Source: Nosocomiicoccus ampullae
GTDB taxonomy: Bacteria; Bacillota; Bacilli; Staphylococcales; Salinicoccaceae
NCBI RefSeq assembly: GCF_019357495.1
Contig: NZ_CP079110.1
Location: forward strand, 1 to 64,000
DNA length: 64,000 nt
Reading direction: 5' to 3'
In this document: positions 1,492 through 55,516 of the stretch, one piece after another
How positions within the stretch are numbered: the stretch's first letter is position 1
Layout: each line of letters starts with the position of its first letter
Program-made: the position numbers and the translations under genes
The notes under the pieces: model-generated
Told to the model about the DNA's origin: nothing
Database searches by the model: none
Seen by the model: the letters and a program-made list of their open reading frames with translations, nothing else

Positions 1492-2625
1492 ATGCATTTA
1501 GAAATTAAACGATCATATTTTACAGAACAACTTAATGACGTTTTAAAAGCTATTTCAAATAGAACTGCTTTACCTATTTTGTCAGGTATTAAATTAGAAG
1601 CAGACAATGACAAATTAGTACTTATTGGAAGTAATGGAGAAATATCAATAGAAATTACAATTCCAACTGAAGTAGATAACGAAGAAATTTTAACAATTAC
1701 TGAGCCAGGTGAAGCGGTATTACCTGCACGTTTCTTTACTGATATTGTCAAAAAATTAGCTGGAGAATATGTTCAATTAAAATCGACAGATCAGTATTCA
1801 ATTCAAGTAAGTGGTGGTAAATCTAATTTCGTCATTAGTGGATCTAACCCGGACGAATACCCATTACTTCCTGAAGTGAATAATGAAGAAAGTTTAAAAA
1901 TTGCCTCATCAGCATTAAAAACAATTATTAACGAAACGAATTTCGCTGTATCAAGTTCAGAGACTAGACCAGTGTTAACTGGTGTTAACTGGCAGTTCTT
2001 TGAAAACGAGATTCACTTTACAGCAACAGACTCTCACAGACTTGCGCTAAGAAAGTTAAAAGATAAAAGTCATGCGATTGAAATTAAAAATGCAATCATT
2101 CCAGGAAAAGCGCTACACGAACTTAATAAAATTATTGAAGATAGCGACGAAGACGTTGAGATTAACTTCTCACAAAATCAAGTATTATTTAAATATGGGA
2201 ATTTAAGATTTATATCTCGCTTACTTGAAGGAAATTATCCAGATACGTCAAGATTATTCCCAGAGAACTATGAAACGAATTTAGTGATTAATAATGACGA
2301 ATTTTTAAAAGCGATTGACCGAGTATCACTACTCGCACTTGAAAGTGGGAATAGTGCAATTAAAATGACAATCGACAGTAACCGCGTTGTATTGTCATCA
2401 AATAGTCCAGAAATCGGAAATGTTGAAGAAGAGGTTACTTCAGTAGATTTAGAAGGTGAGCCACTTCAAATTTCATTCAACTCAAGATATATGATGGATG
2501 CACTCCGTGCAGTCCCTGAGGAAGAAGTATCCATTGAGTTCTTTGGAACGATGAAGCCATTTACACTTCAATCGAATACTTCAAACGATGTGATTCAATT
2601 AATTTTACCAATTAGAACATACTAA
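1492..2625 (+). CDS. dnaN: DNA polymerase III sliding clamp (beta subunit)
   Basis: Ring-shaped processivity clamp that tethers PolC and DnaE to DNA and recruits repair and mismatch proteins through a hydrophobic pocket. The product is 377 aa, the usual length for the three tandem clamp domains. The N-terminal part carries the conserved NRTALPILSGIKLEA region and the C-terminus ends in the typical LPIRTY. The start ATG follows an AAGGGAG ribosome site (about 1478-1484) just after the AT-rich end of oriC. A strong terminator follows within ten bases, so dnaN is separated from the yaaA-recF-gyrBA transcript. Identification is secure. Confidence 0.98.
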   Translation: MHLEIKRSYFTEQLNDVLKAISNRTALPILSGIKLEADNDKLVLIGSNGEISIEITIPTEVDNEEILTITEPGEAVLPARFFTDIVKKLAGEYVQLKSTDQYSIQVSGGKSNFVISGSNPDEYPLLPEVNNEESLKIASSALKTIINETNFAVSSSETRPVLTGVNWQFFENEIHFTATDSHRLALRKLKDKSHAIEIKNAIIPGKALHELNKIIEDSDEDVEINFSQNQVLFKYGNLRFISRLLEGNYPDTSRLFPENYETNLVINNDEFLKAIDRVSLLALESGNSAIKMTIDSNRVVLSSNSPEIGNVEEEVTSVDLEGEPLQISFNSRYMMDALRAVPEEEVSIEFFGTMKPFTLQSNTSNDVIQLILPIRTY

Positions 2626-2631
2626 TTATTG

Positions 2632-2678
2632 GCCATATACCCTTTAAAATTTAAAAATAAGGGTATATGGCTTTTTTT
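2632..2678 (+). terminator. terminator after dnaN
   Basis: A 13-bp perfect stem, GCCATATACCCTT at 2632-2644 with its complement at 2659-2671, is followed by a run of seven T. It closes the dnaA-dnaN unit. Confidence 0.9.
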
Positions 2679-2805
2679 ATTATTTTCTAGTAGGTATATA
2701 GTATTTTTATTTAAAAGCGCTGTATGTGGCTTTAAAAGCGAGTGTAGATGAAAAAAATCATCAAATAATGTATAATAATATAGTAAATATAAGGAGGATA
2801 CGCTG

Positions 2806-3019
2806 ATGGAAATTGTTCGAATTAATGATGGAATTATTACGATTGGCCAATTTTTAAAACTTCAATCAATTATTGATTCTGGTGGAGAAGCTAAATGGTT
2901 TCTTGCAGAAAACGAAGTTTACTTAAACGATGAATTAGAAAATAGACGTGGAAAAAAACTCCATCATAATGATGTCCTCAATATAGGTGAATTTGGAGTG
3001 TATAGAATAGAGTATGTAG

Positions 3020-3033
<14 letters not shown>
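2806..3033 (+). CDS. yaaA: S4-domain RNA-binding protein YaaA
   Basis: Small 75-aa protein of the S4 RNA-binding fold, invariably found between dnaN and recF in Bacillales. The sequence shows the S4 pattern with a glycine-rich turn (IIDSGGEAKWFLAENEVYLN) and the basic NRRGKKLHHND segment. An AAGGAGG ribosome site lies at 2791-2797, and a TATAAT (-10 candidate) lies at 2771-2776 with no convincing -35. The 3' end overlaps recF by 14 bases, which implies translational coupling. It probably binds ribosomal RNA or a ribosome assembly intermediate, but the exact role is not fixed by the sequence. Confidence 0.93.
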
Positions 3034-6048
<3,015 letters not shown>

Positions 6049-14450: not shown

Positions 14451-14675
14451 AATCAAATAATATTTACTTGTGAGATGCAGTAGCATCACCCCTACTTTTA
14501 GAGAGACTATGGTTGGTGAAAATAGTTAGTAGATGATGTGAATTTCTATCTCTAAATATGCAAGTAAACGAAGTTTACTTCGTTTTTAAATGAGATGCAT
14601 ACGTTAATCGTATGTAATTAGGGTGGCAACGCGTATATAACCACGTCCCTTTTGTATATTGGGACGTGGTTTTTT
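14451..14675 (+). promoter_or_regulatory. T-box riboswitch controlling serS
   Basis: The leader of about 225 bases has a stem I region with the usual AGAGAG (about 14501-14506), GGTTGGTGAAAA and GAA...A.CTC marks. The specifier triplet I read is TCT at 14545-14547, a serine codon followed by A. The T-box core TAGGGTGGCAACGCG lies at 14619-14633. An intrinsic terminator follows: ACCACGTCCC at 14640-14649 with its complement at 14661-14670, then six T. Uncharged tRNA-Ser should pair with the specifier and the T-box and prevent termination. Confidence 0.93.
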
Positions 14676-33868: not shown

Positions 33869-34348
33869 ATGAAACTGACACTTATAACTGTTGGTAAATT
33901 AAAAGAAAAATATTGGCGTGAAGCGGTAAAAGAATATGAAAAGAGACTCAGTAAATACGCGAGTGTCTCACTCATTGAAATAAAAGACGAGCAAGAACCA
34001 AATAACGCAAGTGCTAAAGACATTGAGATTATTAAAAATAAAGAAGCAGAACGTATTTTATCTAAAATAAAACCAAATCAACACGTCGTGACGCTGGAGA
34101 TCGGTGGAAAAGAACATTCTTCAGAAAGTTTTGCAAAACATTATAACAACTGGAAAACACAAGGCAAAAGTAATGTTGTATTTGTCATTGGTGGAAGTAA
34201 TGGAATTGGAGAAGAAGTATTAAAACGATCAAACGAAGCAATTAGTTTTGGAAAAATGACCTACCCCCATCAAATGATGAAAGTTATACTACTCGAACAG
34301 TTATTTAGAGTAAATAAGATATTGAATAATGAAAGTTATCATAAGTGA
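33869..34348 (+). CDS. rlmH: 23S rRNA (pseudouridine-1915 N3) methyltransferase RlmH
   Basis: SPOUT methyltransferase of 159 aa acting on the assembled ribosome. The N-terminus KLTLITVGKLKEKYW, the SAM knot VFVIGGSNGIGEEV and C-terminal MKVILLEQLFRVNKI...YHK are diagnostic. RBS GAGGTGATT precedes the ATG. In staphylococci the last codons are the insertion site of SCC elements. Here the gene is intact and followed by about 240 bases without a clear gene. Confidence 0.97.
   Translation: MKLTLITVGKLKEKYWREAVKEYEKRLSKYASVSLIEIKDEQEPNNASAKDIEIIKNKEAERILSKIKPNQHVVTLEIGGKEHSSESFAKHYNNWKTQGKSNVVFVIGGSNGIGEEVLKRSNEAISFGKMTYPHQMMKVILLEQLFRVNKILNNESYHK
34331..34348 (+). other. SCC-type attachment site (attB) at the 3' end of rlmH
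   Basis: GAAAGTTATCATAAGTGA resembles the staphylococcal SCC integration core GAAGCNTATCATAARTGA. I found no second copy downstream in the window, so the site looks unoccupied. Confidence 0.6.
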
Positions 34349-34587
34349 TACGATTTTTTAGAATTTATACATCGCTAATAGAGATCAATATTTCCTTTAT
34401 TTAATTTTATATATGTGATATCAGAAAAGATATAGCATTATGGTAAATATTAAGAATTAATTGGTTACTAAATATAAAATATAATTATGTATTGATAAAG
34501 GAGAATTTAAATGAAGGCGAAGTGCTCCTCAGCCCTTCGCCTAAAATTTATTCAAGAGAACTATTTATATTTTAATTGATTTATCAT
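34349..34587. other. rlmH-downstream spacer with a short ORF and hairpin
   Basis: An AT-rich spacer. A 22-codon ORF (ATG 34511 to TGA 34579) has AAGGAG upstream. Its first codons form the hairpin AGGCGAAG (34515-34522) / CTTCGCCT (34535-34542). The hairpin may be the terminator of the opposing dehydrogenase gene, and the ORF may be chance or a remnant. No similarity is recognised. Confidence 0.35.
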
Positions 34588-35322
34588 TTATAGTGCAGTA
34601 ATACCACCATCTATAACAAATTCTGATCCTGTAGAATAAGAAGCATCGTCAGACGCTAAGAAACATACAAGGTTAGATACTTCTTCTGACTGCGCCACTC
34701 TACGCATTGGAATTGTTTTTTCGAATTCTTTAACGGCTTCTTTAACATCTTCTTGTTCTAACATTGGTGTTTTTATAACACCTGGGTGTACTGAGTTAAC
34801 TCTAATATTGTATGGAGACAATTCTTTAGCTGCAGCTTTTGTCATACCTCTGACCGCAAATTTTGTATCTGTATAGCCAATTGCACCACCAACAAGACCA
34901 TTAATTGAAGAAATATTGATGATTGCCCCTTGTTTTTGACTTTTCATAATTTTAGATACAGTTTTGATGCCTAAAAATACAGATACTTGATTAATATTTA
35001 CAATCTTCATATAATCTTCTAATGATATTTGGTCAATTGTTTTATTGTATGTGATTCCAGCATTATTAACCAATACATCAATTCGATTCCATTTGTTCAT
35101 TACTTCTTGAATGACATGATTCCAATCTGCTTCTTTAGATACATCATGCTTGATAAATAAAACATCGTCTCCAAGAGAATTAGCTGTTTTTTGGCCTAAT
35201 TCATCATTAATATCAGTTATCACGACTTTTGCGCCTTCAGCTATCGCTTTTTTGGCATGAAGTTCTCCCATACCTTGTGCGCCACCAGTAATAACGACGA
35301 CTTTATCTTGTAATTTTCCCAT
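34588..35322 (-). CDS. short-chain dehydrogenase/reductase
   Basis: NAD(P)-dependent oxidoreductase of the classical SDR family, 244 aa. The ATG at 35322 has AGGAAGG upstream. A longer in-frame start at 35358 is unlikely. Motifs are the TGGAQGMG dinucleotide loop, VLVNNAGI, catalytic Ser in ISSINGLVGG and YTDTK (Tyr-x3-Lys), with C-terminal VIDGG. Overall it resembles hydroxysteroid/cyclopentanol dehydrogenase-like SDRs, but the substrate cannot be read from the sequence. Acetoin reductase is also an SDR, and budA is nearby, so that is an alternative. It appears to be a single-gene unit. Confidence 0.88.
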   Translation of the reverse strand: MGKLQDKVVVITGGAQGMGELHAKKAIAEGAKVVITDINDELGQKTANSLGDDVLFIKHDVSKEADWNHVIQEVMNKWNRIDVLVNNAGITYNKTIDQISLEDYMKIVNINQVSVFLGIKTVSKIMKSQKQGAIINISSINGLVGGAIGYTDTKFAVRGMTKAAAKELSPYNIRVNSVHPGVIKTPMLEQEDVKEAVKEFEKTIPMRRVAQSEEVSNLVCFLASDDASYSTGSEFVIDGGITAL

Positions 35323-35428
35323 TGTAAAACATCCTTCCTCTAAATTAATATTGTTCATAATGTTATTGTATATTTAACTCAATCCAGAAGCTAAAAAAGT
35401 CATTTATATTTATAAAGGTTTTTTTAAC

Positions 35429-37234
35429 TTAAATATATGACTCTGTCAGTTCTAAAAATTCTTCAATGTCTTTATGAACTGAATTTAATGCGTCTTGCCA
35501 GAAGTCTGGTTTGCGTAAATCAACGTTTAAATGCTTTTCAGCTAACTCTTCTGTTGTCATGCTCGCAGTATCGCGTAGAAGCGCAATATAGTCATCTTCA
35601 CTCAGGTTTCCATCTTCTAAGAAGCGGTTGTATATGCCTAAGCTGAAGAAGTATCCAAATGTATATGGGAAATTATAGAATGGTACACCAGTAATATGAA
35701 AATGTAATTTTGTTGCCCAGAACATTGGATGATATGAACGAAGTGCATCTTGATATGCTTCTTTTTGTGCTTCTTCCATTAGTTCTTTTAGTCTGTTGCT
35801 GTCTACAGTTGATTTTTGACGTTCATCATATAAGTTACGTTCAAAGATATAGCGTGCGTGGATATTCATCATAAATGCGACACTTCTTGAGAGTTTCTCG
35901 TCGATTAAATTAATTTTTTCTGCGTCTGAAGTTGCATTTTCAATCGTTGCATTTGAAACGACAAGTTCTGCGAATGTAGATGCTGTTTCTGCAACGTTCA
36001 TTGCGTAGCGCTGATTGAAAATAGGTAAATCACGCATCACATAACTATGGAACGCATGACCAAGTTCGTGCGCGAGTGTTGAGACGTTACTTGTACTACC
36101 AGCAAACGTCATAAAAATACGAGACTGTTCTGATTCTGGAAGATTAGAACAATACCCACCCGGACGTTTTCCAGGGCGATCTTCTGCTTCAATCCATTGT
36201 TCTTCAAATGCACGACGCGACATCTCTGCCATTTTTGGGCTGAATGATTTAAAATTCTCGATAATAAATTCTGCTGCTTCATTGTACGTATATTTTTTGC
36301 TTGTATAATCTCCTACGTCAACACTTGCACTGACATCGAGCCAACCTAATTGATCAACACCAAGAAGTTGTGCTTTTCTTTTAAAGTATTTTTTGAGTGG
36401 TGATTTATTTTTAGCTATCGTATTCCACATTGTATCGAGTGTTTCTTCATCCATACGGTTGTAGTCTAGTGGTACTTTCATATAATCTTTATAGTTGTGA
36501 AGTTGATAGTTATTTAAACGAAATCCTGATAAATGGTTTAACGTCGTAGAAAATAAATCAGCTTTTTTCTCCCATGTATCTTCCCAAATTTTTAACAGTT
36601 CTTCACGTTTTTCAGGATTCTCTTCTGAATTCATCTTATTTTCAAATTGACCTGCTGAATAATATTTAGTTTCATTATCTTCAGTTAATGGAATTTGAAT
36701 AGAAGCAACGAGTTGATTGTACATATTCCCCCACCCATGTAGACCATCGAGTGATAAATTGTTGATGATTGTTTCTTCCTCTGTGGACAATAAATCATTT
36801 TCTTTTTTTCGTATTTCTTCTAAAGGGAAACTCATTGCTTTAAAGAAGTCGTCCTCTAAAAATTTGTTAAATTGTTCCTCAGTAAGTGCACTGATTTTCT
36901 TATTTAAAATAATATTCTCTGATGAGAAATCTTTACGTAAATCCGCAACTTGATTTGAATTTTGTAATGCCTTTTGATCGTTAACATCTGCAGATACTAA
37001 TCCTGTCGTAAAGCTCCCCATCTCACCAAGCGCGTTTGAAATGTTTTCGTATTGCTGTAAGATGCTCTTTAGCTGTGTAAAATCATTAGAATTTCCTTCA
37101 GGATCCCAGTCCTCTAGTTTGTTAGAAAAATCAGTAATGCTATCACTCACTTCTAATAAACGTTCTTTGAAAGTAGAAGATTCACTCCCACCTGGAAACA
37201 CACTCTCCATATCCCAATTCTCTTTATACTTCAT
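35429..37234 (-). CDS. pepF: oligoendopeptidase F (M3 family)
   Basis: Cytosolic zinc metallopeptidase that cuts peptides of roughly 7-17 residues. The ATG at 37234 (601 aa) has AAAGGATGG upstream; a longer in-frame start at 37303 adds an unrelated hydrophobic leader. The zinc site is LAHELGHAFHS (HExxH), with the third ligand in NVAETASTFAE. The N-terminal helical PepF domain spans roughly residues 100-180. The upstream region contains a cre sequence identical to the one before oppA, so peptide import and cleavage are probably co-regulated. Confidence 0.95.
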   Translation of the reverse strand: MKYKENWDMESVFPGGSESSTFKERLLEVSDSITDFSNKLEDWDPEGNSNDFTQLKSILQQYENISNALGEMGSFTTGLVSADVNDQKALQNSNQVADLRKDFSSENIILNKKISALTEEQFNKFLEDDFFKAMSFPLEEIRKKENDLLSTEEETIINNLSLDGLHGWGNMYNQLVASIQIPLTEDNETKYYSAGQFENKMNSEENPEKREELLKIWEDTWEKKADLFSTTLNHLSGFRLNNYQLHNYKDYMKVPLDYNRMDEETLDTMWNTIAKNKSPLKKYFKRKAQLLGVDQLGWLDVSASVDVGDYTSKKYTYNEAAEFIIENFKSFSPKMAEMSRRAFEEQWIEAEDRPGKRPGGYCSNLPESEQSRIFMTFAGSTSNVSTLAHELGHAFHSYVMRDLPIFNQRYAMNVAETASTFAELVVSNATIENATSDAEKINLIDEKLSRSVAFMMNIHARYIFERNLYDERQKSTVDSNRLKELMEEAQKEAYQDALRSYHPMFWATKLHFHITGVPFYNFPYTFGYFFSLGIYNRFLEDGNLSEDDYIALLRDTASMTTEELAEKHLNVDLRKPDFWQDALNSVHKDIEEFLELTESYI

Positions 37235-37301
37235 TAAATTCCATCCTTTCTGAATAAAAATATTGATACTTTTATCATACAGAAAATATATGAATATTAA
37301 C

Positions 37302-37315
37302 ATAAAACGTTTTCA
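37302..37315 (-). promoter_or_regulatory. CcpA cre site upstream of pepF
   Basis: On the - strand it reads TGAAAACGTTTTAT, identical over 14 bases to the oppA cre, 68 bases before the pepF start. Confidence 0.68.
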
Positions 37316-37405
37316 TAATTTGAGTATAAATTTATTAGAGATGATAGAATAATATTTGTCAGTTATTTATTGATAAATGTATGTTAAAAATTTTGAGGTG
37401 ATTTC

Positions 37406-37933
37406 TTGAATTTAGGGCTTAAAAATAATGAAGTTAGATTAATAGAGTATTCGCCAAAGTGGAAAGATGAATTTAAAAGGTCTAAAAATTTAATATTAGA
37501 TCATACTCATATTCAAGAAAATAGAATTGAGCATATTGGCAGTACATCAATAATCGGTATGTCCGCAAAGCCTATAATAGATATTGTTATAGGAGTAGAT
37601 GATTTAGAAAAGGTTGATAAAACTTTGTTTAAAGAATTAGAAAACGCAGGGTTTTTTAGGTTAAAAGTGAATCGTCCTAATGAAATTGTACTTGCAAAAT
37701 TTTTAGATGAGTCTTATAAAGTAAAAACGCATTTTATTCATCTTGTGGAATATGAAAAAGATTTGTGGCATAATTTAATCTTTTTTAGAGATTATTTGAA
37801 TAATAACAAAGAAGCTAGAGAAAAATATCTAGATATTAAGAAGAAATATGTAAGTAAGTCTTCAACGGGAATCATCGATTATACAAATTATAAGGAAAAC
37901 TTTGTGAAGGAAATTTATAAGAAACGTAAATAA
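37406..37933 (+). CDS. GrpB-like nucleotidyltransferase-fold protein (UPF0157)
   Basis: A 175-aa protein of the GrpB/UPF0157 family. The marks are VRLIEYSPKWKDEFKR at the N-terminus, IEHIGSTSIIGMSAKPIIDIVIGV (nucleotidyltransferase-like GS...D.D core) and LIFFRDYLNNNKEAREKY. The start is a TTG at 37406 behind GAGGTGAT. Family members are uncharacterised or linked to CoA/glutamate-related functions, so no reaction is assigned. The gene is rather AT-rich and stands alone, 46 bases before budA. Confidence 0.85.
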   Translation: MNLGLKNNEVRLIEYSPKWKDEFKRSKNLILDHTHIQENRIEHIGSTSIIGMSAKPIIDIVIGVDDLEKVDKTLFKELENAGFFRLKVNRPNEIVLAKFLDESYKVKTHFIHLVEYEKDLWHNLIFFRDYLNNNKEAREKYLDIKKKYVSKSSTGIIDYTNYKENFVKEIYKKRK

Positions 37934-37979
37934 ATGATAGTATTATATATAATACACTGAATACAAGGAAGGTTTTATA

Positions 37980-38684
37980 ATGACTTCAACGTTATTTCAA
38001 CACGGCACCCTTGGTATGTTAATGGAAGGTTTTTTAGAAGGTACAATTTCTATTAACGAAATTCTTAAAAAAGGAAATTATGGACTTGGTACGCTTTCAG
38101 GTGCAGATGGTGAAGTTGTAATTGTAGATGGTAAAGCTTTTCATATGAATGGTGATAAGAGATTTATTGAACTAAATGGTGATGAAATGACACCATTTGG
38201 TATGGTCGCTCAGTTTTCTTCAGATAATAGTTTTAAGGTAAAAAATAAAACATCTGAGGCAGTACTAAAAGAAGTTGAATCTCATATGATAAGTAAAAAC
38301 TTATTTTCAGCTGTGAAGATCACTGGTACATTTAAAATGATGCACATTCGTACGATTCACGCTCAAGAAGAACCATATCAACGTTTAATAGAATCTGCGC
38401 GTGAACAAGTGGAGATTAAAGAAGAAAATATTACAGGTACGTTAATTGGATTTTATACACCAGAGCTATTTCATGGAGTGAGTGTTGGAGGATTTCATAA
38501 TCACTTTGTGGATGAAAATGAAAAATTTGGTGGACATGTATTAGATTTTGAGGTTTTAGATGGAACAGTTGAAATACAAAACTTTGAAACATTTGAGCAA
38601 CAACTCCCTCTGACTAATGAATCATTCAACAAATCAGAAATGGACAATGAGAAAATAAGAAAAGAGATTAGAGAAACTGAATAA
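37980..38684 (+). CDS. budA: alpha-acetolactate decarboxylase
   Basis: Converts 2-acetolactate to acetoin, diverting pyruvate overflow to a neutral product. The protein is 234 aa. The zinc site is seen in GFHNHFVDENEKFGGHVLDF (three His) together with the ATIHAQEEPY-like segment FKMMHIRTIHAQEEPYQ. RBS AAGGAAGG precedes the ATG. No acetolactate synthase gene is nearby, so its substrate must come from alsS or ilvBN elsewhere. It is 28 bases from mqo, and the two appear co-transcribed. Confidence 0.94.
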   Translation: MTSTLFQHGTLGMLMEGFLEGTISINEILKKGNYGLGTLSGADGEVVIVDGKAFHMNGDKRFIELNGDEMTPFGMVAQFSSDNSFKVKNKTSEAVLKEVESHMISKNLFSAVKITGTFKMMHIRTIHAQEEPYQRLIESAREQVEIKEENITGTLIGFYTPELFHGVSVGGFHNHFVDENEKFGGHVLDFEVLDGTVEIQNFETFEQQLPLTNESFNKSEMDNEKIRKEIRETE

Positions 38685-38711
38685 AAACTTTAAAGGAAAG
38701 GATTATATATT

Positions 38712-40208
38712 ATGACTAAATCAGATAATCAGCATAAAGATATTGTTGTTATAGGCGCGGGTGTGATTGGCACTTCGGTAGCAACTGTACTTTCAAAAGT
38801 GAGCCCGAACTGGAATATTGATATGTATGAAAGATTAGATGAAGCTGGAATCGAGAGTTCGAATGAGAAAAATAATGCAGGTACAGGACATGCTGCATTA
38901 TGTGAGTTAAACTACACAGTTCAACAAGCGGACGGAACTATTGACGCTTCTAAAGCTGAAGAGATTAATGAACAATTTGAACTATCTAAACAGTTTTGGG
39001 GCAGTTTAGTTAAAAATGGTGATATTTCTAATCCAGAGGAATTTATTCAGCCATTACCGCATATTAGTTTTGTAATGGGTCCAACTAACGTTGAATTTTT
39101 ACGAAAACGTTATGAAAAACTAAAAACAATTCCTATGTTTGACAACATCGAATACACTGAAGATATTGAAACAATGAGAGAATGGATGCCATTAATGATG
39201 CGAGATCGTAAGTCTAGTCAGCTAATGGCAGCAAGTAAAATCGATGAAGGTACCGATGTGAACTATGGTACTTTAACTCGTAAATTAGCAAAATATTTAG
39301 AGCAGAAATCTAATGTTTCATTAAAATATAATCATGAAGTGATTGATTTAACTCAACGAGAAGATGGCAAATGGGAAGTTATTGTAAAAAATAGAGCGAC
39401 TAAAGAAAAATTTACTAAAGTAGCTGATAAAGTATTTATCGGTGCTGGAGGTTACTCTATTCCATTACTTCAAAAAAGTGGGATATCTCAGAGAAAAAAT
39501 GTCGGAGGTTTCCCGATTACTGGTCAATTCTTAGCGTGTAAAAATAAAGATATTATTAAACAACATAATGCAAAAGTTTACAGTAAAGAGCCTCTAGGTA
39601 AGCCACCAATGACTGTACCGCACCTCGATACACGTTATATCAATGGTGAAAGTACGTTACTATTTGGCCCATATGCGAATATTGACCCTAAATTCTTAAA
39701 ATATGGATCGTTCTTTGACTTATTTGGCTCAGTAAAACCTTATAACATTACGACGTTATTATCATCAGCGGCTAAAAATATACCACTTATTAAATACTCA
39801 ATTGACCAAATGGTTATGACTAAAAAAGGTTATATGAACTATTTAAGAACATTCATACCTGATGCAAAAGATGAAGATTGGGAATTATACACTGCTGGTA
39901 AACGTGTTCAGGTAATTAAAGACGACGACGAATATGGTAAAGGATATGTTGCGTTCGGAACAGAGGTTGTGAACTCTGATGATAATTCTGTCATTGCAGT
40001 ATTAGGAGAATCACCAGGTGCTTCAATATCATTCTCTGTAGTTCTTGAAGCATTAGAGAAAAACTTTAAAGAAGATCGTGAACTCTGGGGACCTGCAGTT
40101 AAAAAATTAGTACCGTCATATGGTAAATCACTCATTAATGACGAAAAGCTTATGAGAGAAACTCGTAGAGAAACATCTGAAAACTTAAATTTAAATTATT
40201 ATAATTAA
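38712..40208 (+). CDS. mqo: malate:quinone oxidoreductase
   Basis: Membrane-associated FAD enzyme that oxidises malate to oxaloacetate and reduces quinone. The protein is 498 aa. The N-terminal FAD loop is DIVVIGAGVIGTSVA, followed by EKNNAGTGHAALCELNYT, typical of Mqo. Late segments RVQVIKDDDEYGKGYVAFGTEVV and LGESPGAS also fit. RBS AAGGAAAGG precedes the ATG. The gene follows budA and is followed by a 33-aa peptide gene before a strong terminator. Confidence 0.95.
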   Translation: MTKSDNQHKDIVVIGAGVIGTSVATVLSKVSPNWNIDMYERLDEAGIESSNEKNNAGTGHAALCELNYTVQQADGTIDASKAEEINEQFELSKQFWGSLVKNGDISNPEEFIQPLPHISFVMGPTNVEFLRKRYEKLKTIPMFDNIEYTEDIETMREWMPLMMRDRKSSQLMAASKIDEGTDVNYGTLTRKLAKYLEQKSNVSLKYNHEVIDLTQREDGKWEVIVKNRATKEKFTKVADKVFIGAGGYSIPLLQKSGISQRKNVGGFPITGQFLACKNKDIIKQHNAKVYSKEPLGKPPMTVPHLDTRYINGESTLLFGPYANIDPKFLKYGSFFDLFGSVKPYNITTLLSSAAKNIPLIKYSIDQMVMTKKGYMNYLRTFIPDAKDEDWELYTAGKRVQVIKDDDEYGKGYVAFGTEVVNSDDNSVIAVLGESPGASISFSVVLEALEKNFKEDRELWGPAVKKLVPSYGKSLINDEKLMRETRRETSENLNLNYYN

Positions 40209-40229
40209 TTTTAAAAAGAGGTTGTATTA

Positions 40230-40331
40230 ATGAAAAAAACAGTGATTATTTTCAGCGTTATTTCAGCGTTATTAGTAGCATTTAAATTATATCAAGATAA
40301 AGTCAACGAAATGCCTAATATAGAATATTAA
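40230..40331 (+). CDS. small membrane peptide downstream of mqo
   Basis: A 33-aa ORF with one hydrophobic helix (about residues 4-19, after MKKT) and a polar C-terminus (YQDKVNEMPN). An AGAGG ribosome site stands about eleven bases upstream. It starts 21 bases after the mqo stop and ends just before the operon terminator, so it is in a transcribed and probably translated position. It might be a small subunit or accessory of the quinone-linked enzyme, which is inference. No family is recognised. Confidence 0.6.
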   Translation: MKKTVIIFSVISALLVAFKLYQDKVNEMPNIEY

Positions 40332-40336
40332 TTAGT

Positions 40337-40377
40337 AAAAGAAGTCCGTGATACTAGTTTGGTCACGGACTTCTTTT
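40337..40377. terminator. bidirectional terminator after the budA-mqo unit
   Basis: A 15-pair stem AAAAGAAGTCCGTGA / TCACGGACTTCTTTT. It ends in T on the + strand and has A-rich sequence on the other side. It separates mqo from the converging MerR remnant. Confidence 0.92.
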
Positions 40378-40721
40378 TATATAAGACTTTCTTTATTTAA
40401 TTCTTCTTCAATGAGTTTAATATGTGAGTTGATAAGGTTTTTTTGATCATTTAAAAATTTTAAATGTGCTTTTAAAAATGTTTGAATTTCAATTTTATTA
40501 TCGTAAAGCATGTTTGTATTTTTCTTAATTTCCTTTAGGGGCATGTTTAAATTACTTAAACATTGAATGAATTTTATCATTTCAATATCATCTTTTGAAT
40601 ATCATCTTTTATTATTATGATCTCGCTTAATATTTTTTAGTATTCCTTTTTTCTCATAGTAGCGCAACCTACTTTTAGAAATATCACAATAATTCGCAAC
40701 ATATTCTATGACTACTTGCAA
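40377..40721 (-). pseudogene. MerR-family regulator, interrupted by an in-frame stop
   Basis: On the - strand a MerR helix-turn-helix reads EYVANYCDISKSRLRYYEKK, then a TGA at 40604-40602, then YSKDDIEMIKFIQCLSNLN and a coiled C-terminal helix. All parts are in one frame. The stop takes the place of a residue that is often Trp in such proteins (RWYS), so TGG to TGA is a simple explanation. The best upstream start is a TTG at 40721 with a poor ribosome site. Translation could restart at the ATG at 40580 and yield only the 67-aa dimerisation part. It lies downstream of a SAM-I riboswitch. Confidence 0.75.
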
Positions 40722-40733
40722 GGTTGTTTACTT

Positions 40734-40811
40734 TCATTTTTTTGCTTCCTCAAGCTGATCGTACAATTCTAGTACCCTATCGTAACTCTGTCTTTCATCA
40801 ATACATTTCAT
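40734..40811 (-). CDS. 25-codon ORF between SAM-I riboswitch and MerR remnant
   Basis: An ORF with AAGGAG upstream, starting ATG at 40811 and ending TGA at 40734. The product is charged and helical (ends YDQLEEAKK). Its stop overlaps an ATG (ATGA) that opens only an 17-codon frame. It may be a truncated remnant of the gene the riboswitch once controlled, or a leader peptide. No family is recognised. Confidence 0.4.
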   Translation of the reverse strand: MKCIDERQSYDRVLELYDQLEEAKK

Positions 40812-40863
40812 TAAATATAATCTCCTTTAATTAATTATATTCAATAAAATAGCCCTTCAAATT

Positions 40864-40985
40864 AAGAAGAGCGTCCAAGGTCTTCTTATCTTTCAGTACA
40901 AACTGTTGGAATTGGCACATCGCTAAAAGCTGTTGCCGGAGTTTCACAGGGCCAAATCCCTCCACTCACTCTTAATAAGAGAACT
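40864..40985 (-). promoter_or_regulatory. SAM-I (S-box) riboswitch
   Basis: On the - strand the conserved S-box elements appear in order: TCTTAT...AAGAG, GAGGGATTTGGCCCTGTGAA, CTCCGGCAAC, GATGTGCCAATTCC and GAAAGATAAGA. P1 pairs TCTTAT (40980-40975) with ATAAGA (40889-40884). A seven-pair hairpin (40887-40881 / 40870-40864) overlaps the P1 3' strand as a terminator stem would, but no T-tract follows, so the expression platform looks decayed. No methionine or SAM gene lies downstream. Confidence 0.9.
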
Positions 40986-41003: not shown

Positions 41004-41009
41004 ATTATA
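41004..41009 (-). promoter_or_regulatory. -10 element of the SAM-I riboswitch transcript
   Basis: TGCTATAAT on the - strand is an extended -10, about 25 bases before the aptamer. The -35 is weak. Confidence 0.5.
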
Positions 41010-41106
41010 GCATACTATTTGTGATTTCTGAAGTTGATGATAACGCATAGCGATACATCTAAATTTAATGATATAATTAGTGTTGATAAGATATTTTAAC
41101 ATATAA

Positions 41107-41144: not shown

Positions 41145-43016
41145 ATGGATAATGTAATTAAGGTACATTTAGTTGGATCAGATTATAATGCCTCTGGTGT
41201 TTATGATTTTGATAAAAAAACTATAATTATTTTTAAAGGAAGTAAAATTAAAAGTCATTTAAATGATATCATTAAAGAGGATTTTCCAGATATTATTGAA
41301 CTTAGGAAACGACTTTATGATGAAAATATACTCACTAATAATGAGTTTATTGAAGATTATGAGTTCGATGATATCAATGTTACTACTAGACTTATATCTT
41401 CGAATGATTCTTCTAAAGAAGTATGGAAATTAAGTAATAACTCTTCACTTCAAAAGTACGAAAACCAACTTTCTCATCAAAAGCAGTTTATTGAATTCTA
41501 TACGAGTTTTAAAGTTGACGATTTGGAAGAAAAAATAAAAGCTCAAGCAGAGGTTATTAAAAGATTTCAATCATTATATCCTCTACATAAGTTACCAAAT
41601 TTGACGTTAAAAGAATTCGATCAAAGAGGTTCGAATGAGAGTTTTATGTACTTAATAGAATTTGGAACTAGAGAAATAGCGTCAGGGTTTTTAGGAAATA
41701 ATAGAAATAAACTTTTCTTTCAGAATAAAGATGGAACTTATGATAGTATTAATTATTTTAAAAATAAGTATCCTAATGAAACAGTTGATGAACGACTGTC
41801 TTTATTTTTAAATCAGCTATATGAGATGATTGTAAATTTTGATAAAAATACTTATGTGAATCAACCACCTCGTAATATTAATACAATTCGTGGGAAACTC
41901 ATTATGATATATCGCCCAGGCGAGCTGATTACATTTAATTCTAAAAATAAGTATGATGCGTTACATAAGCATTTAGGTTTACCTTATGAAAATCTCGATT
42001 CGGTTGAACTTAATATCGAGATGCAAAAGTTCTTAAATAAGAATGAGATAAAGGTGAATGTAACGGAAGCTGCAGAAATTTTAGAGGCGTATTATCAAGA
42101 ATATATTAATTATAAAAATACTAATAAAGTAGTTGGAGATACGAACAATATGAACTCTATATCTGACGATATTTTTCTTTCTAAGGAGGAAATAAATCAA
42201 ATATTACGATTACTGCAACGTAAAAAATCAATAATATTTACTGGTCCTCCTGGCGTAGGTAAAACTTTTATAGCTAAAAATTTAATTAATAAATATTTTA
42301 GTGATGTTGCTGAGTCTAGTATTGAAATGGTTCAATTTCATCAAAGTTATTCTTACGAAGAGTTTATTGAGGGATTAAAACCTCAAATGGATGGTAGTTT
42401 TTCTACGGAGAAAGGTATTTTTTATAATATATGTAAGCGAGCTGAAAATGATCCGGAAAAAGATTATTTTCTAATTATTGACGAAATTAATCGTGGTAAT
42501 ACATCGAATATATTTGGAGAGTTATTGTTATTATTGGACAGTGATAAACGTTCTAATTATGAAATTCGTTTAACATACTCTAAAGAAACATTTTCGATTC
42601 CTGAGAACCTATATATTATTGGGACGATGAATATGGCAGATCGATCATTATCAATAATTGATTACGCGCTACGTAGACGTTTCGCGTTTTTTAACATCGA
42701 ACCTGCTTTTGATAAAAAGAAATTTGAAATGCATTTATGTAATGTTATGAATTTAACACAGAAAGATATTAATAATATTGTGTCAACAATGTCTAATATA
42801 AATTCAAAAATAGAAAAGACTATAGGAATAGATTTTGTAATAGGACATAGTTATTTTATAGAAAATGATGATATAGATGACGTAAAACAATGGTTAGAAG
42901 ATATATTTGAATTTGAGGTTATGCCATTATTAAGAGAATATTATTATGATAACAACGAAAAAATTAAAGAATTTAGATATTTTATTGAGGAATTATATGA
43001 AAAATATTCCGATTAA
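41145..43016 (+). CDS. mcrB: McrB-like GTPase of a type IV (McrBC) restriction system
   Basis: A 623-aa AAA+ motor subunit of a modification-dependent restriction system. The N-terminal about 90 residues (ASGVYDFDKKTIIIFKGSK...ELRKRLYDENI) look like a DUF4357 domain. A middle region (about 150-240, with SFMYLIEFGTREIASGFLGN) resembles McrB target-recognition modules. The AAA+ core has Walker A GPPGVGKT at 367-374, Walker B LIIDEINRGNTSNIFGELL and the McrB-type MNMADRSLSIIDYALRRRF. RBS AGGAGG precedes the ATG. A TATAAT lies at 41072-41077. The gene is clearly AT-richer than the wal or gyr genes. The 3' end overlaps mcrC. Confidence 0.9.
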   Translation: MDNVIKVHLVGSDYNASGVYDFDKKTIIIFKGSKIKSHLNDIIKEDFPDIIELRKRLYDENILTNNEFIEDYEFDDINVTTRLISSNDSSKEVWKLSNNSSLQKYENQLSHQKQFIEFYTSFKVDDLEEKIKAQAEVIKRFQSLYPLHKLPNLTLKEFDQRGSNESFMYLIEFGTREIASGFLGNNRNKLFFQNKDGTYDSINYFKNKYPNETVDERLSLFLNQLYEMIVNFDKNTYVNQPPRNINTIRGKLIMIYRPGELITFNSKNKYDALHKHLGLPYENLDSVELNIEMQKFLNKNEIKVNVTEAAEILEAYYQEYINYKNTNKVVGDTNNMNSISDDIFLSKEEINQILRLLQRKKSIIFTGPPGVGKTFIAKNLINKYFSDVAESSIEMVQFHQSYSYEEFIEGLKPQMDGSFSTEKGIFYNICKRAENDPEKDYFLIIDEINRGNTSNIFGELLLLLDSDKRSNYEIRLTYSKETFSIPENLYIIGTMNMADRSLSIIDYALRRRFAFFNIEPAFDKKKFEMHLCNVMNLTQKDINNIVSTMSNINSKIEKTIGIDFVIGHSYFIENDDIDDVKQWLEDIFEFEVMPLLREYYYDNNEKIKEFRYFIEELYEKYSD

Positions 43017-44016
43017 AAATATTTATTATATGGCATTATATGCATTAGATTTATTGGATTATAAATATGAATTTGATTATAAAAATTATGAAAAAGTTGA
43101 ATCTATTCATGATGTACTATTGAGTATGTATTTAAGGTCTTTAAAGAATTTAGAATCTAAGGGGCTAAGAAATGAATATATTCGAGAGGATCAAAAATCT
43201 TACTTTATAAAAGGTAAAATTAATGTTTTAGAAAGTTTACGGCAAGTTGATGGATCTTATATATCTGAAGTTGATAATTTTAGTGAAGACAACTTGTTAA
43301 ATCAAATATTAAAAGCACAACTTGTTTATCTAAGTCAATTTGATTCCAAATTCAGACGTGACATTGGACATTTACTACTAAAATTTCAAAATGTTAGGCT
43401 GATTAATTTAAAAGGTATCACCTATCCTAAAAACTTTAATCGCTTGAATAATCATTATAGATTTTCATTACAAATAGGAAAATTTCTATATGAAAGTTCA
43501 ATTCCCTCGGAGCAAAACAAAGACACATATTTTAAACAAATAAACGATAATGAAATTATGCACCAGTTGTTTGAGTCATTTATATTTAAATACTACTTAA
43601 AAGAACATCCGTATATAGTTAAAAAACGCAGTTACAGTTGGAATCTTAATCCACTTGCAGGTAGCGATATAGATTTAATACCGACTATGAATACGGATAT
43701 AGAAATTGAAACACCAAATAAATATTATGTTATTGATGCTAAATACTATCAATCAGCATTTAGTGAACGTTATAAAAGAAGATTTAAATCGGAGAATATG
43801 TATCAAATTTATGCATACATGAATCGGGTTGAATCGAAAAATAAGATTATACAAGGTATTTTATTATATCCAAGTAATGGATATGACTTTTTTGAGCAAT
43901 TTATACTGGAGGATGGTAAAATAATCTCCTTCAAAACAGTGAATCTGAGTGAAAGTTGGACTCGTGTGAAAAATGACTTAGATGAAATTTTTTGGGACAC
44001 TTACAATGATTACTAA
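42997..44016 (+). CDS. mcrC: McrC-like nuclease subunit of a type IV restriction system
   Basis: Partner of McrB, 339 aa from the ATG at 42997, which has TGAGG six bases upstream. The protein then begins MKNIPIKNIYYMALYALDLL, the usual McrC start. The earlier ATG at 42946 has no ribosome site. The C-terminal half carries a PD-(D/E)xK nuclease pattern: GSDIDLIPTMN, then IDAKYYQ, then a YQIYAYM helix. It overlaps mcrB by 20 bases. A long terminator follows. Together the two would cut DNA bearing foreign modified bases; which base is not predictable. Confidence 0.9.
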   Translation: MKNIPIKNIYYMALYALDLLDYKYEFDYKNYEKVESIHDVLLSMYLRSLKNLESKGLRNEYIREDQKSYFIKGKINVLESLRQVDGSYISEVDNFSEDNLLNQILKAQLVYLSQFDSKFRRDIGHLLLKFQNVRLINLKGITYPKNFNRLNNHYRFSLQIGKFLYESSIPSEQNKDTYFKQINDNEIMHQLFESFIFKYYLKEHPYIVKKRSYSWNLNPLAGSDIDLIPTMNTDIEIETPNKYYVIDAKYYQSAFSERYKRRFKSENMYQIYAYMNRVESKNKIIQGILLYPSNGYDFFEQFILEDGKIISFKTVNLSESWTRVKNDLDEIFWDTYNDY

Positions 44017-55243: not shown

Positions 55244-55302
55244 AGTATATCTAAAAAAGAATAGACTAAATAAGCAACTTAAATAAACATTAAGTTGTCG
55301 TT

Positions 55303-55426
55303 TTTCTTTCTCCCATCCAGACTTTAACTGTCGGCTCTAGATATTCACTAGATCAGCCGTATAATCACTTATACGGGTCGCAGGCTATTACTGCCGGTTT
55401 GGAATTTCACCAAGCCCCGAAAGAAA
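55303..55426 (-). promoter_or_regulatory. FMN riboswitch (RFN element)
   Basis: On the - strand the conserved RFN blocks appear in order: TTTCGGGGCTTGGTGAAATT, CCGGCAGTAATAGCCTGCGA, a variable hairpin (CCGTATAAGTGATTATACGG), AGCCGACAGTTAAAGTCTGG and ATGGGAGAAAG. P1 closes between TTTCTTTC and GAAAGAAA. About 60 bases separate it from the terminator, including a possible antiterminator (ACAACTTAA...TTAAGTTG). Confidence 0.96.
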
Positions 55427-55516
55427 CATATTTAACTGTATTCAATACAACATATTGAGGATGTCAGAAAATTTCTGACACTTATACAATATACAACTTT
55501 CTAAAAATATACAAGT

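Follow-up and report, generated by a model that had tools for sequence, protein, structure and literature searches.

A SAM-I riboswitch that leads a transcription unit without any gene of methionine or S-adenosylmethionine (SAM) metabolism raises the question of what the switch controls. Here we examined such a locus of Nosocomiicoccus ampullae within a window of 64,000 nucleotides, the whole stretch of DNA analysed (contig NZ_CP079110.1, positions 1 to 64,000 of the forward strand). Two mutually exclusive answers had been offered in the original prediction, namely that the switch is the relic of a deleted methionine gene, or that it controls a small peptide or a regulator and would thus be a new SAM-I target. 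Our analysis indicates that each answer holds in part, the first for the window, where the locus is a relic, and the second for relatives, where there is a new target. We consider it very likely, with a probability of about 0.87, that the locus in the window is what remains, at its original place, of a single-gene unit comprising a SAM-I riboswitch, a small ORF and a terminator, and that this unit represents a new SAM-I target in relatives. The features on which this reading is built are as follows, in the direction of transcription.

41004..41032, minus strand: sigma-A-type extended -10 promoter, TTCAGA-17 nt-TATAAT with TG before it (10 of 12 consensus matches)
40883..40981, minus strand: SAM-I (S-box) aptamer, full length (Rfam RF00162, model 1-108)
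40863..40888, minus strand: putative antiterminator, UAAGAAGA (40888-40881) with UCUUCUUA (40870-40863), 8 pairs
40842..40872, minus strand: predicted intrinsic terminator GCUCUUC...GAAGGGC (40872-40852) with U-rich tail UAUUUUAUUG (40851-40842), from a terminator scan
40822..40828, minus strand: Shine-Dalgarno sequence AAAGGAG, at a position conserved in the leader alignment
40734..40811, minus strand: 25-codon ORF, read as the 5' part of a decayed small-protein gene (MKCIDERQSYDRVLELYDQLEEAKK); the ATG is placed as in relatives and ELYDQLEE matches the family
40709..40737, minus strand: probable further part of the small-protein gene, read in a different frame (..MKVNNLASS..) and broken off at the junction; from a frame-slipped reading against the family HMM
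40708..40709, no strand: junction, colinear with the sister species on its left side and not on its right (blastn of G001:C13 against the window)
40377..40709, minus strand: merR remnant with its native first codons lost and an in-frame TGA at 40604-40602 (PF13411; 92% identical to an intact MerR in sister species G001, MENYYIEYVANY...)
about 40340..40378, no strand: inverted repeat with T/A tails, a 3' terminator common to the mqo side and the merR remnant, also present in G001

The leader itself is complete. The predicted aptamer with its core elements (minus strand, 40981-40883) scored 76.5 bits (E 3.5e-16) over the full length of the RF00162 model, above the curated gathering score of 44.4, and the predicted extended -10 was found at 41032-41004. 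The leader aligns with those of relatives along its whole length, and as a single sequence it folds only modestly better than shuffles (z -1.34). The 5' strand of the antiterminator, UAAGAAGA, overlaps the 3' strand of P1, so that by sequence the locus has both the P1/antiterminator competition and the intrinsic terminator of a SAM-I expression platform. In a 14-sequence alignment 91% of the antiterminator cells and 98% of the terminator cells are paired, with zero compensatory changes in either helix, and the support for both is therefore conservation and not covariation. The 7 bp terminator was the sole terminator-like site that the scan found in the region (shuffles gave a mean of 0.1). It had been claimed that the terminator stem lacks a T-tract; this is wrong for the switch's own terminator, which is followed by the tail UAUUUUAUUG, and a U-rich tail is also kept in relatives.

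From what is established for SAM-I riboswitches and from the alignment, switching of this leader would depend on SAM. With SAM bound, P1 would be stabilized and the 5' side of the terminator freed, and the terminator would form; at low SAM, the 3' strand of P1, UAAGAAGA, would pair with the 5' side of the terminator, UCUUCUUA, and transcription would run on. Since no part of the leader is missing and its sequence is conserved, it should have remained an OFF switch, and the riboswitch in the window probably continues to switch, with no more than a 25-residue fragment left under its control. Elsewhere in the window, a T-box leader (14458-14653, plus strand) and an FMN riboswitch (55301-55428, minus strand) are both above their Rfam gathering scores. 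Divergent from the SAM-I riboswitch lies a McrBC-like pair (41145-44016, plus strand), in which the gene for an AAA ATPase of 623 aa overlaps a PF10117 McrBC-component gene of 356 aa; its GC content of about 0.25-0.28 is lower than that of its neighbours, and the pair was not seen in the compared part of the sister contig.

What follows the leader is best seen in relatives. A search with the leader DNA gave 15 related loci with 72-85% identity over roughly 150-195 bases, and most of these have an ORF of about 57-87 aa that starts at the position of the window ATG (e.g. MKTCRELYEELEYRENTPAKNWAGSMARVGRINQIKAEISQQIDVVKHKDAILKMLESSH); overall the conserved small ORF of relatives measures 53-100 aa. 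A protein-only profile of 12 small proteins, which contained no RNA information but whose members had been gathered via the leader, matched in 68 of the 157 genomes of the order. At 70 of its first 72 places an RF00162 aptamer lies directly upstream. The ATG stands 64-75 nt past the aptamer end in the 69 places with a readable ORF of at least 45 codons, and at the 70th aptamer-led place (L069) the ORF is interrupted by an in-frame stop. The two others are a metY operon in G107 and, in G102, a degenerate, stop-containing copy without a SAM-I riboswitch in the 10 kb examined, which we discarded. One profile match lay in another family of the class Bacilli. A broader profile of 29 sequences found seven further places in two genera of this second family, all with a SAM-I riboswitch directly upstream, and a profile built from the second-family members finds, besides themselves, only members from the Staphylococcales. 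Among the places examined, no intact family member was found outside a SAM-I-led gene series. Named records that carry the ORF belong to Jeotgalicoccus, Salinicoccus, Lacicoccus, Phocicoccus, Staphylococcus xylosus, S. coagulans and S. gallinarum, and the copy of S. xylosus (L064) is intact.

Two further matches were rejected: a weak one in G468, which is a false positive on a stretch of an apparent McsA-like protein, and the second one in G106 (3118-3219 of L207), which is a 3' fragment. Some genomes of genus g10 have two diverged SAM-I/small-ORF copies at separate sites (L081 and L090, L086 and L096, L082 and L101). In three genomes of genus g8 (L051, L053 and L055, at about 195-316), the SAM-I/small-ORF unit is preceded, at a distance of about 1 kb, by the Rfam sRNA sau-13 (RF02385).

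The substitution pattern indicates that the small ORF is under purifying selection and is a real protein, with a Nei-Gojobori pN/pS of at most 0.5 in 28 of 29 pairs of related copies and mostly of 0.1-0.35. AlphaFold2, run on 12 sequences, predicts three helices (4-16, 22-42 and 45-57) with a mean pLDDT of 90, the family core reads E-L-x-x-L-x-x-W-x-x-Y-x-P-x-x-x-x-S-S-M/I-x-K, and a C-terminal extension present in some groups may form a beta-hairpin. Pfam, NCBIfam and PHROG gave no match of weight and hold no family model for the protein. Among solved structures, sequence matches in the PDB were short and without weight, the best Foldseek match had an E of 1.3, and the best VIA-align Z of 6.6 is at a level common for small helical folds. 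Full-text searches of open papers turned up no small protein placed under the control of a SAM-I riboswitch; given this coverage, the description of the family as undescribed is provisional. No small protein was found among the SAM-I targets in two accounts of riboswitch regulons (PMC3766115, PMC2258182) and one on S. aureus (PMC3386247).

The copy in the window has the right start but not the right end. Its ATG at 40811 lies beyond the terminator and the Shine-Dalgarno sequence, counted from the aptamer end at 40883, as in relatives. The 25-codon ORF behind AAAGGAG (40811-40734) and the in-frame stop of the MerR gene that follows (TGA, 40604-40602) had both been recognized correctly; two features that had been missed are that merR has lost its native start and that the ORF continues recognizably in another frame. 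In its own frame the ORF aligns with the family only through ELYDQLEE. From a run of seven A residues (A7), the other frame reads ...KVNNLASS, which corresponds column for column to ...QPNNVSSS of the family. With one frame change allowed at any position, the family HMM gives 14.2 bits for the segment of 103 bases that starts with the ATG and reaches the junction, and the null maxima are 9.5 bits (best of 400 dinucleotide shuffles) and 9.4 bits (best of 398 real window segments). We take this alignment to mean that the ORF in the window is the 5' half of the small-protein gene conserved in relatives. Through frame slip and truncation, this copy lacks the intact core (E-L-x-x-L-x-x-W ... P-x-x-x-x-S-S-M ... 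second helix), and because of the frame slip at A7 and the TGA in merR the switch would drive no more than a fragment of 25 residues. Both the frame slip and the TGA may represent later decay or may be sequence or assembly errors; the missing 3' half of the ORF and the lost merR start could not be explained as assembly errors.

Where the small-ORF homology stops, at 40709, a stretch colinear with the sister species begins. By blastn, window positions 34331-40709 correspond to G001:C13 1399-7824 with 93.6% identity over 6.4 kb, ending inside merR. The PF13411 MerR-type HTH is recognized in the window with an E of 6.9e-15 on read-through, and it is not contained in a single intact frame with a start, given the TGA and the native start lost relative to G001. 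In G001, MerR is intact (MENYYIEYVANYCDIS..., 92% identity), and no riboswitch precedes its gene, which faces a DJ-1/PfpI gene and oxidoreductase genes; merR is also present as an independent gene in two other genomes of the family. In G010, from a related genus, the order is rib genes, riboswitch with small ORF, grpB, pepF, rlmH and walK, which is that of the window, and mqo, alsD and merR are absent between the switch and grpB. This shared order makes the site in the window most likely ancestral, and not the result of a leader insertion. We rejected a mobile origin, as the gene order supports an ancestral site and two family members had no match in phage or plasmid records.

Most likely, a single deletion in the window lineage would have joined the ORF's 5' half to merR, its leftward neighbour, at about codon 5, and would also have removed the merR start together with the DJ-1 and oxidoreductase genes that the sister retains. 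Such an event would explain jointly the truncated ORF, the lost merR start and the missing DJ-1 genes, and the frame slip at A7 and the TGA in merR would have completed the decay of the unit. The leader and the small protein had no match in two sister genomes (one of them 86% complete), and the deletion is hence deduced from the related genus and one sister, with no intermediate seen. The converging terminator predicted to end the unit is the inverted repeat with T/A tails at about 40340-40378. Between mqo and this shared terminator there is a 33-codon ORF with a hydrophobic stretch (40231-40332, plus strand, MKKTVIIFSVISALLVAFKLYQDKVNEMPNIEY), visible in the sister too. Beyond the DJ-1 and oxidoreductase genes of G001 there are second, broken pepF-like fragments (L131, contig C13, 10339-11071) that are 80-84% identical to the window pepF, in addition to the intact pepF at 2499-4349. 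They point to a duplication or rearrangement in this region.

The proposal that the switch is an orphan leader left by a deleted canonical methionine gene draws on the fact that the unit in the window holds the small-ORF relic and the merR remnant and no known methionine, SAM or sulfur gene, as had been predicted, while the four other SAM-I leaders of the same genome adjoin metN-type transporters and metK. However, relatives have the small ORF and no methionine gene directly after the leader, even where the surrounding gene order matches that of the window, and the window retains a recognizable 5' half of this ORF, which makes a lost methionine gene very unlikely. The relic part of that prediction stands, with a conserved small-protein gene in place of the methionine gene. 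The second option, a small peptide or regulator as a new target, stands for the small ORF of relatives and not for merR. A new SAM-I-to-MerR circuit, in which the switch controls a merR captured by the deletion, could be imagined because merR lies downstream on the same strand with no terminator-like site found between it and the switch. We regard such a circuit as extremely improbable: merR is without its native start and its frame is interrupted by a TGA, and its likely partner, the DJ-1 gene, is gone here and present in the sister. The comparison that had been suggested, for an intact methionine gene or an intact merR behind the switch in related genomes, gave the small ORF behind the leader and, in the sister, an intact merR that faces the DJ-1 gene without a riboswitch, which argues that MerR is not the target.

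Alternatively, the 25-codon peptide could itself be functional in the window lineage, as a shortened, selected small protein or as a leader peptide. Its promoter, switch, Shine-Dalgarno sequence and start codon are all intact, but P-x-S-x-x-S-S-M and the second helix behind it, which make up the conserved core, are either absent or not in frame, and the two sister genomes provide no match for a selection comparison; we think that such a function is unlikely. It is also conceivable that the RNA is the product, the terminated leader acting in trans as a small RNA, as the Listeria SAM riboswitch RNAs SreA and SreB reportedly do, with the ORF being incidental. This would fit with a leader that is intact while the ORF decays in the window, and with the in-frame stops in L069 and L145, where the aptamer is kept. 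Nevertheless, the purifying selection on the ORF and the paralogous ORFs inside operons, which have no leader of their own, make a role as a trans-acting RNA improbable. In these two loci the ORF has decayed and the leader has not, which suggests that the small gene is dispensable in some lineages. We favour the in-place relic of a SAM-I-controlled small-protein gene.

Most of the known targets of SAM-I switches are enzymes or transporters that act in methionine and sulfur metabolism, and the paralogs of the small protein that stand in other operons are the only members with a sulfur gene in their unit. Weak profile matches pointed to this second arrangement, in Staphylococcus-like genomes. 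In G031, G039 and G107 a SAM-I aptamer is followed by metY (O-acetylhomoserine sulfhydrylase; 679.5 bits for G107, with a TIGR01326 cut-off of 495.1) and then directly by a small-protein paralog, and in G080 there is a match just 3' of metY. In G030, G133 and G143 the series is SAM-I aptamer, NtaA/DmoA-type monooxygenase, transporter-like gene, tautomerase and small protein. The metY and monooxygenase units thus show that a family member need not be the first gene to belong to a SAM-I-led series. The loci L188, L187 and L189 of the same three genomes have two consecutive SAM-I riboswitches, one before metY and one before the NtaA/DmoA series, which ends in DJ-1. In one second-family genus (L147, L148, L150 and L156) the small ORF has 93-96 aa and a glycerate kinase gene stands a few bases on (PF02595 in L150).

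In relatives, the run-on transcript encodes the conserved small protein. By association with the switch and the sulfur operons, the protein would be made under methionine or SAM shortage. Its role would lie in the metabolism of methionine or sulfur, where it would most likely be a small helical protein that partners an enzyme or serves as its adaptor, rather than an enzyme itself. We tentatively propose, as a possibility rather than a probability, that this new three-helix family, found only in SAM-I-controlled units of the Staphylococcales and two genera of another Bacilli family, is the protein arm of the S-box response, made at low SAM and binding or tuning a methionine or sulfur enzyme, with MetY as the best candidate, or its regulator. 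A conserved small protein without a family model that was found intact only in SAM-I units offers an entry to an unknown step of methionine homeostasis in staphylococci and their relatives. The copy in the window indicates that an intact riboswitch can outlive its gene, which calls for caution when targets are assigned from a single genome.

Compared with the S-box units of Firmicutes (metK, metNPQ, metY and further genes; RF00162), the leader in the window has the same aptamer class and the same transcription-attenuation layout, whereas the gene under its switch is a small ORF without a family model, and broken. Like Listeria SreA and SreB, it is a SAM-I leader that could act apart from a methionine gene; the difference is that in relatives a conserved coding ORF follows the leader. 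The SAM riboswitch of S. aureus in the 5' UTR of SA0011, described as controlling homoserine O-acetyltransferase (PMC3386247), is likewise a SAM-I leader in Staphylococcus, but its target is not a small ORF. The SAM-I-metY operon of Staphylococcus (TIGR01326) has a small-protein paralog as its second gene, whereas the arrangement in the window and most relatives is a small gene that immediately follows a switch of its own.
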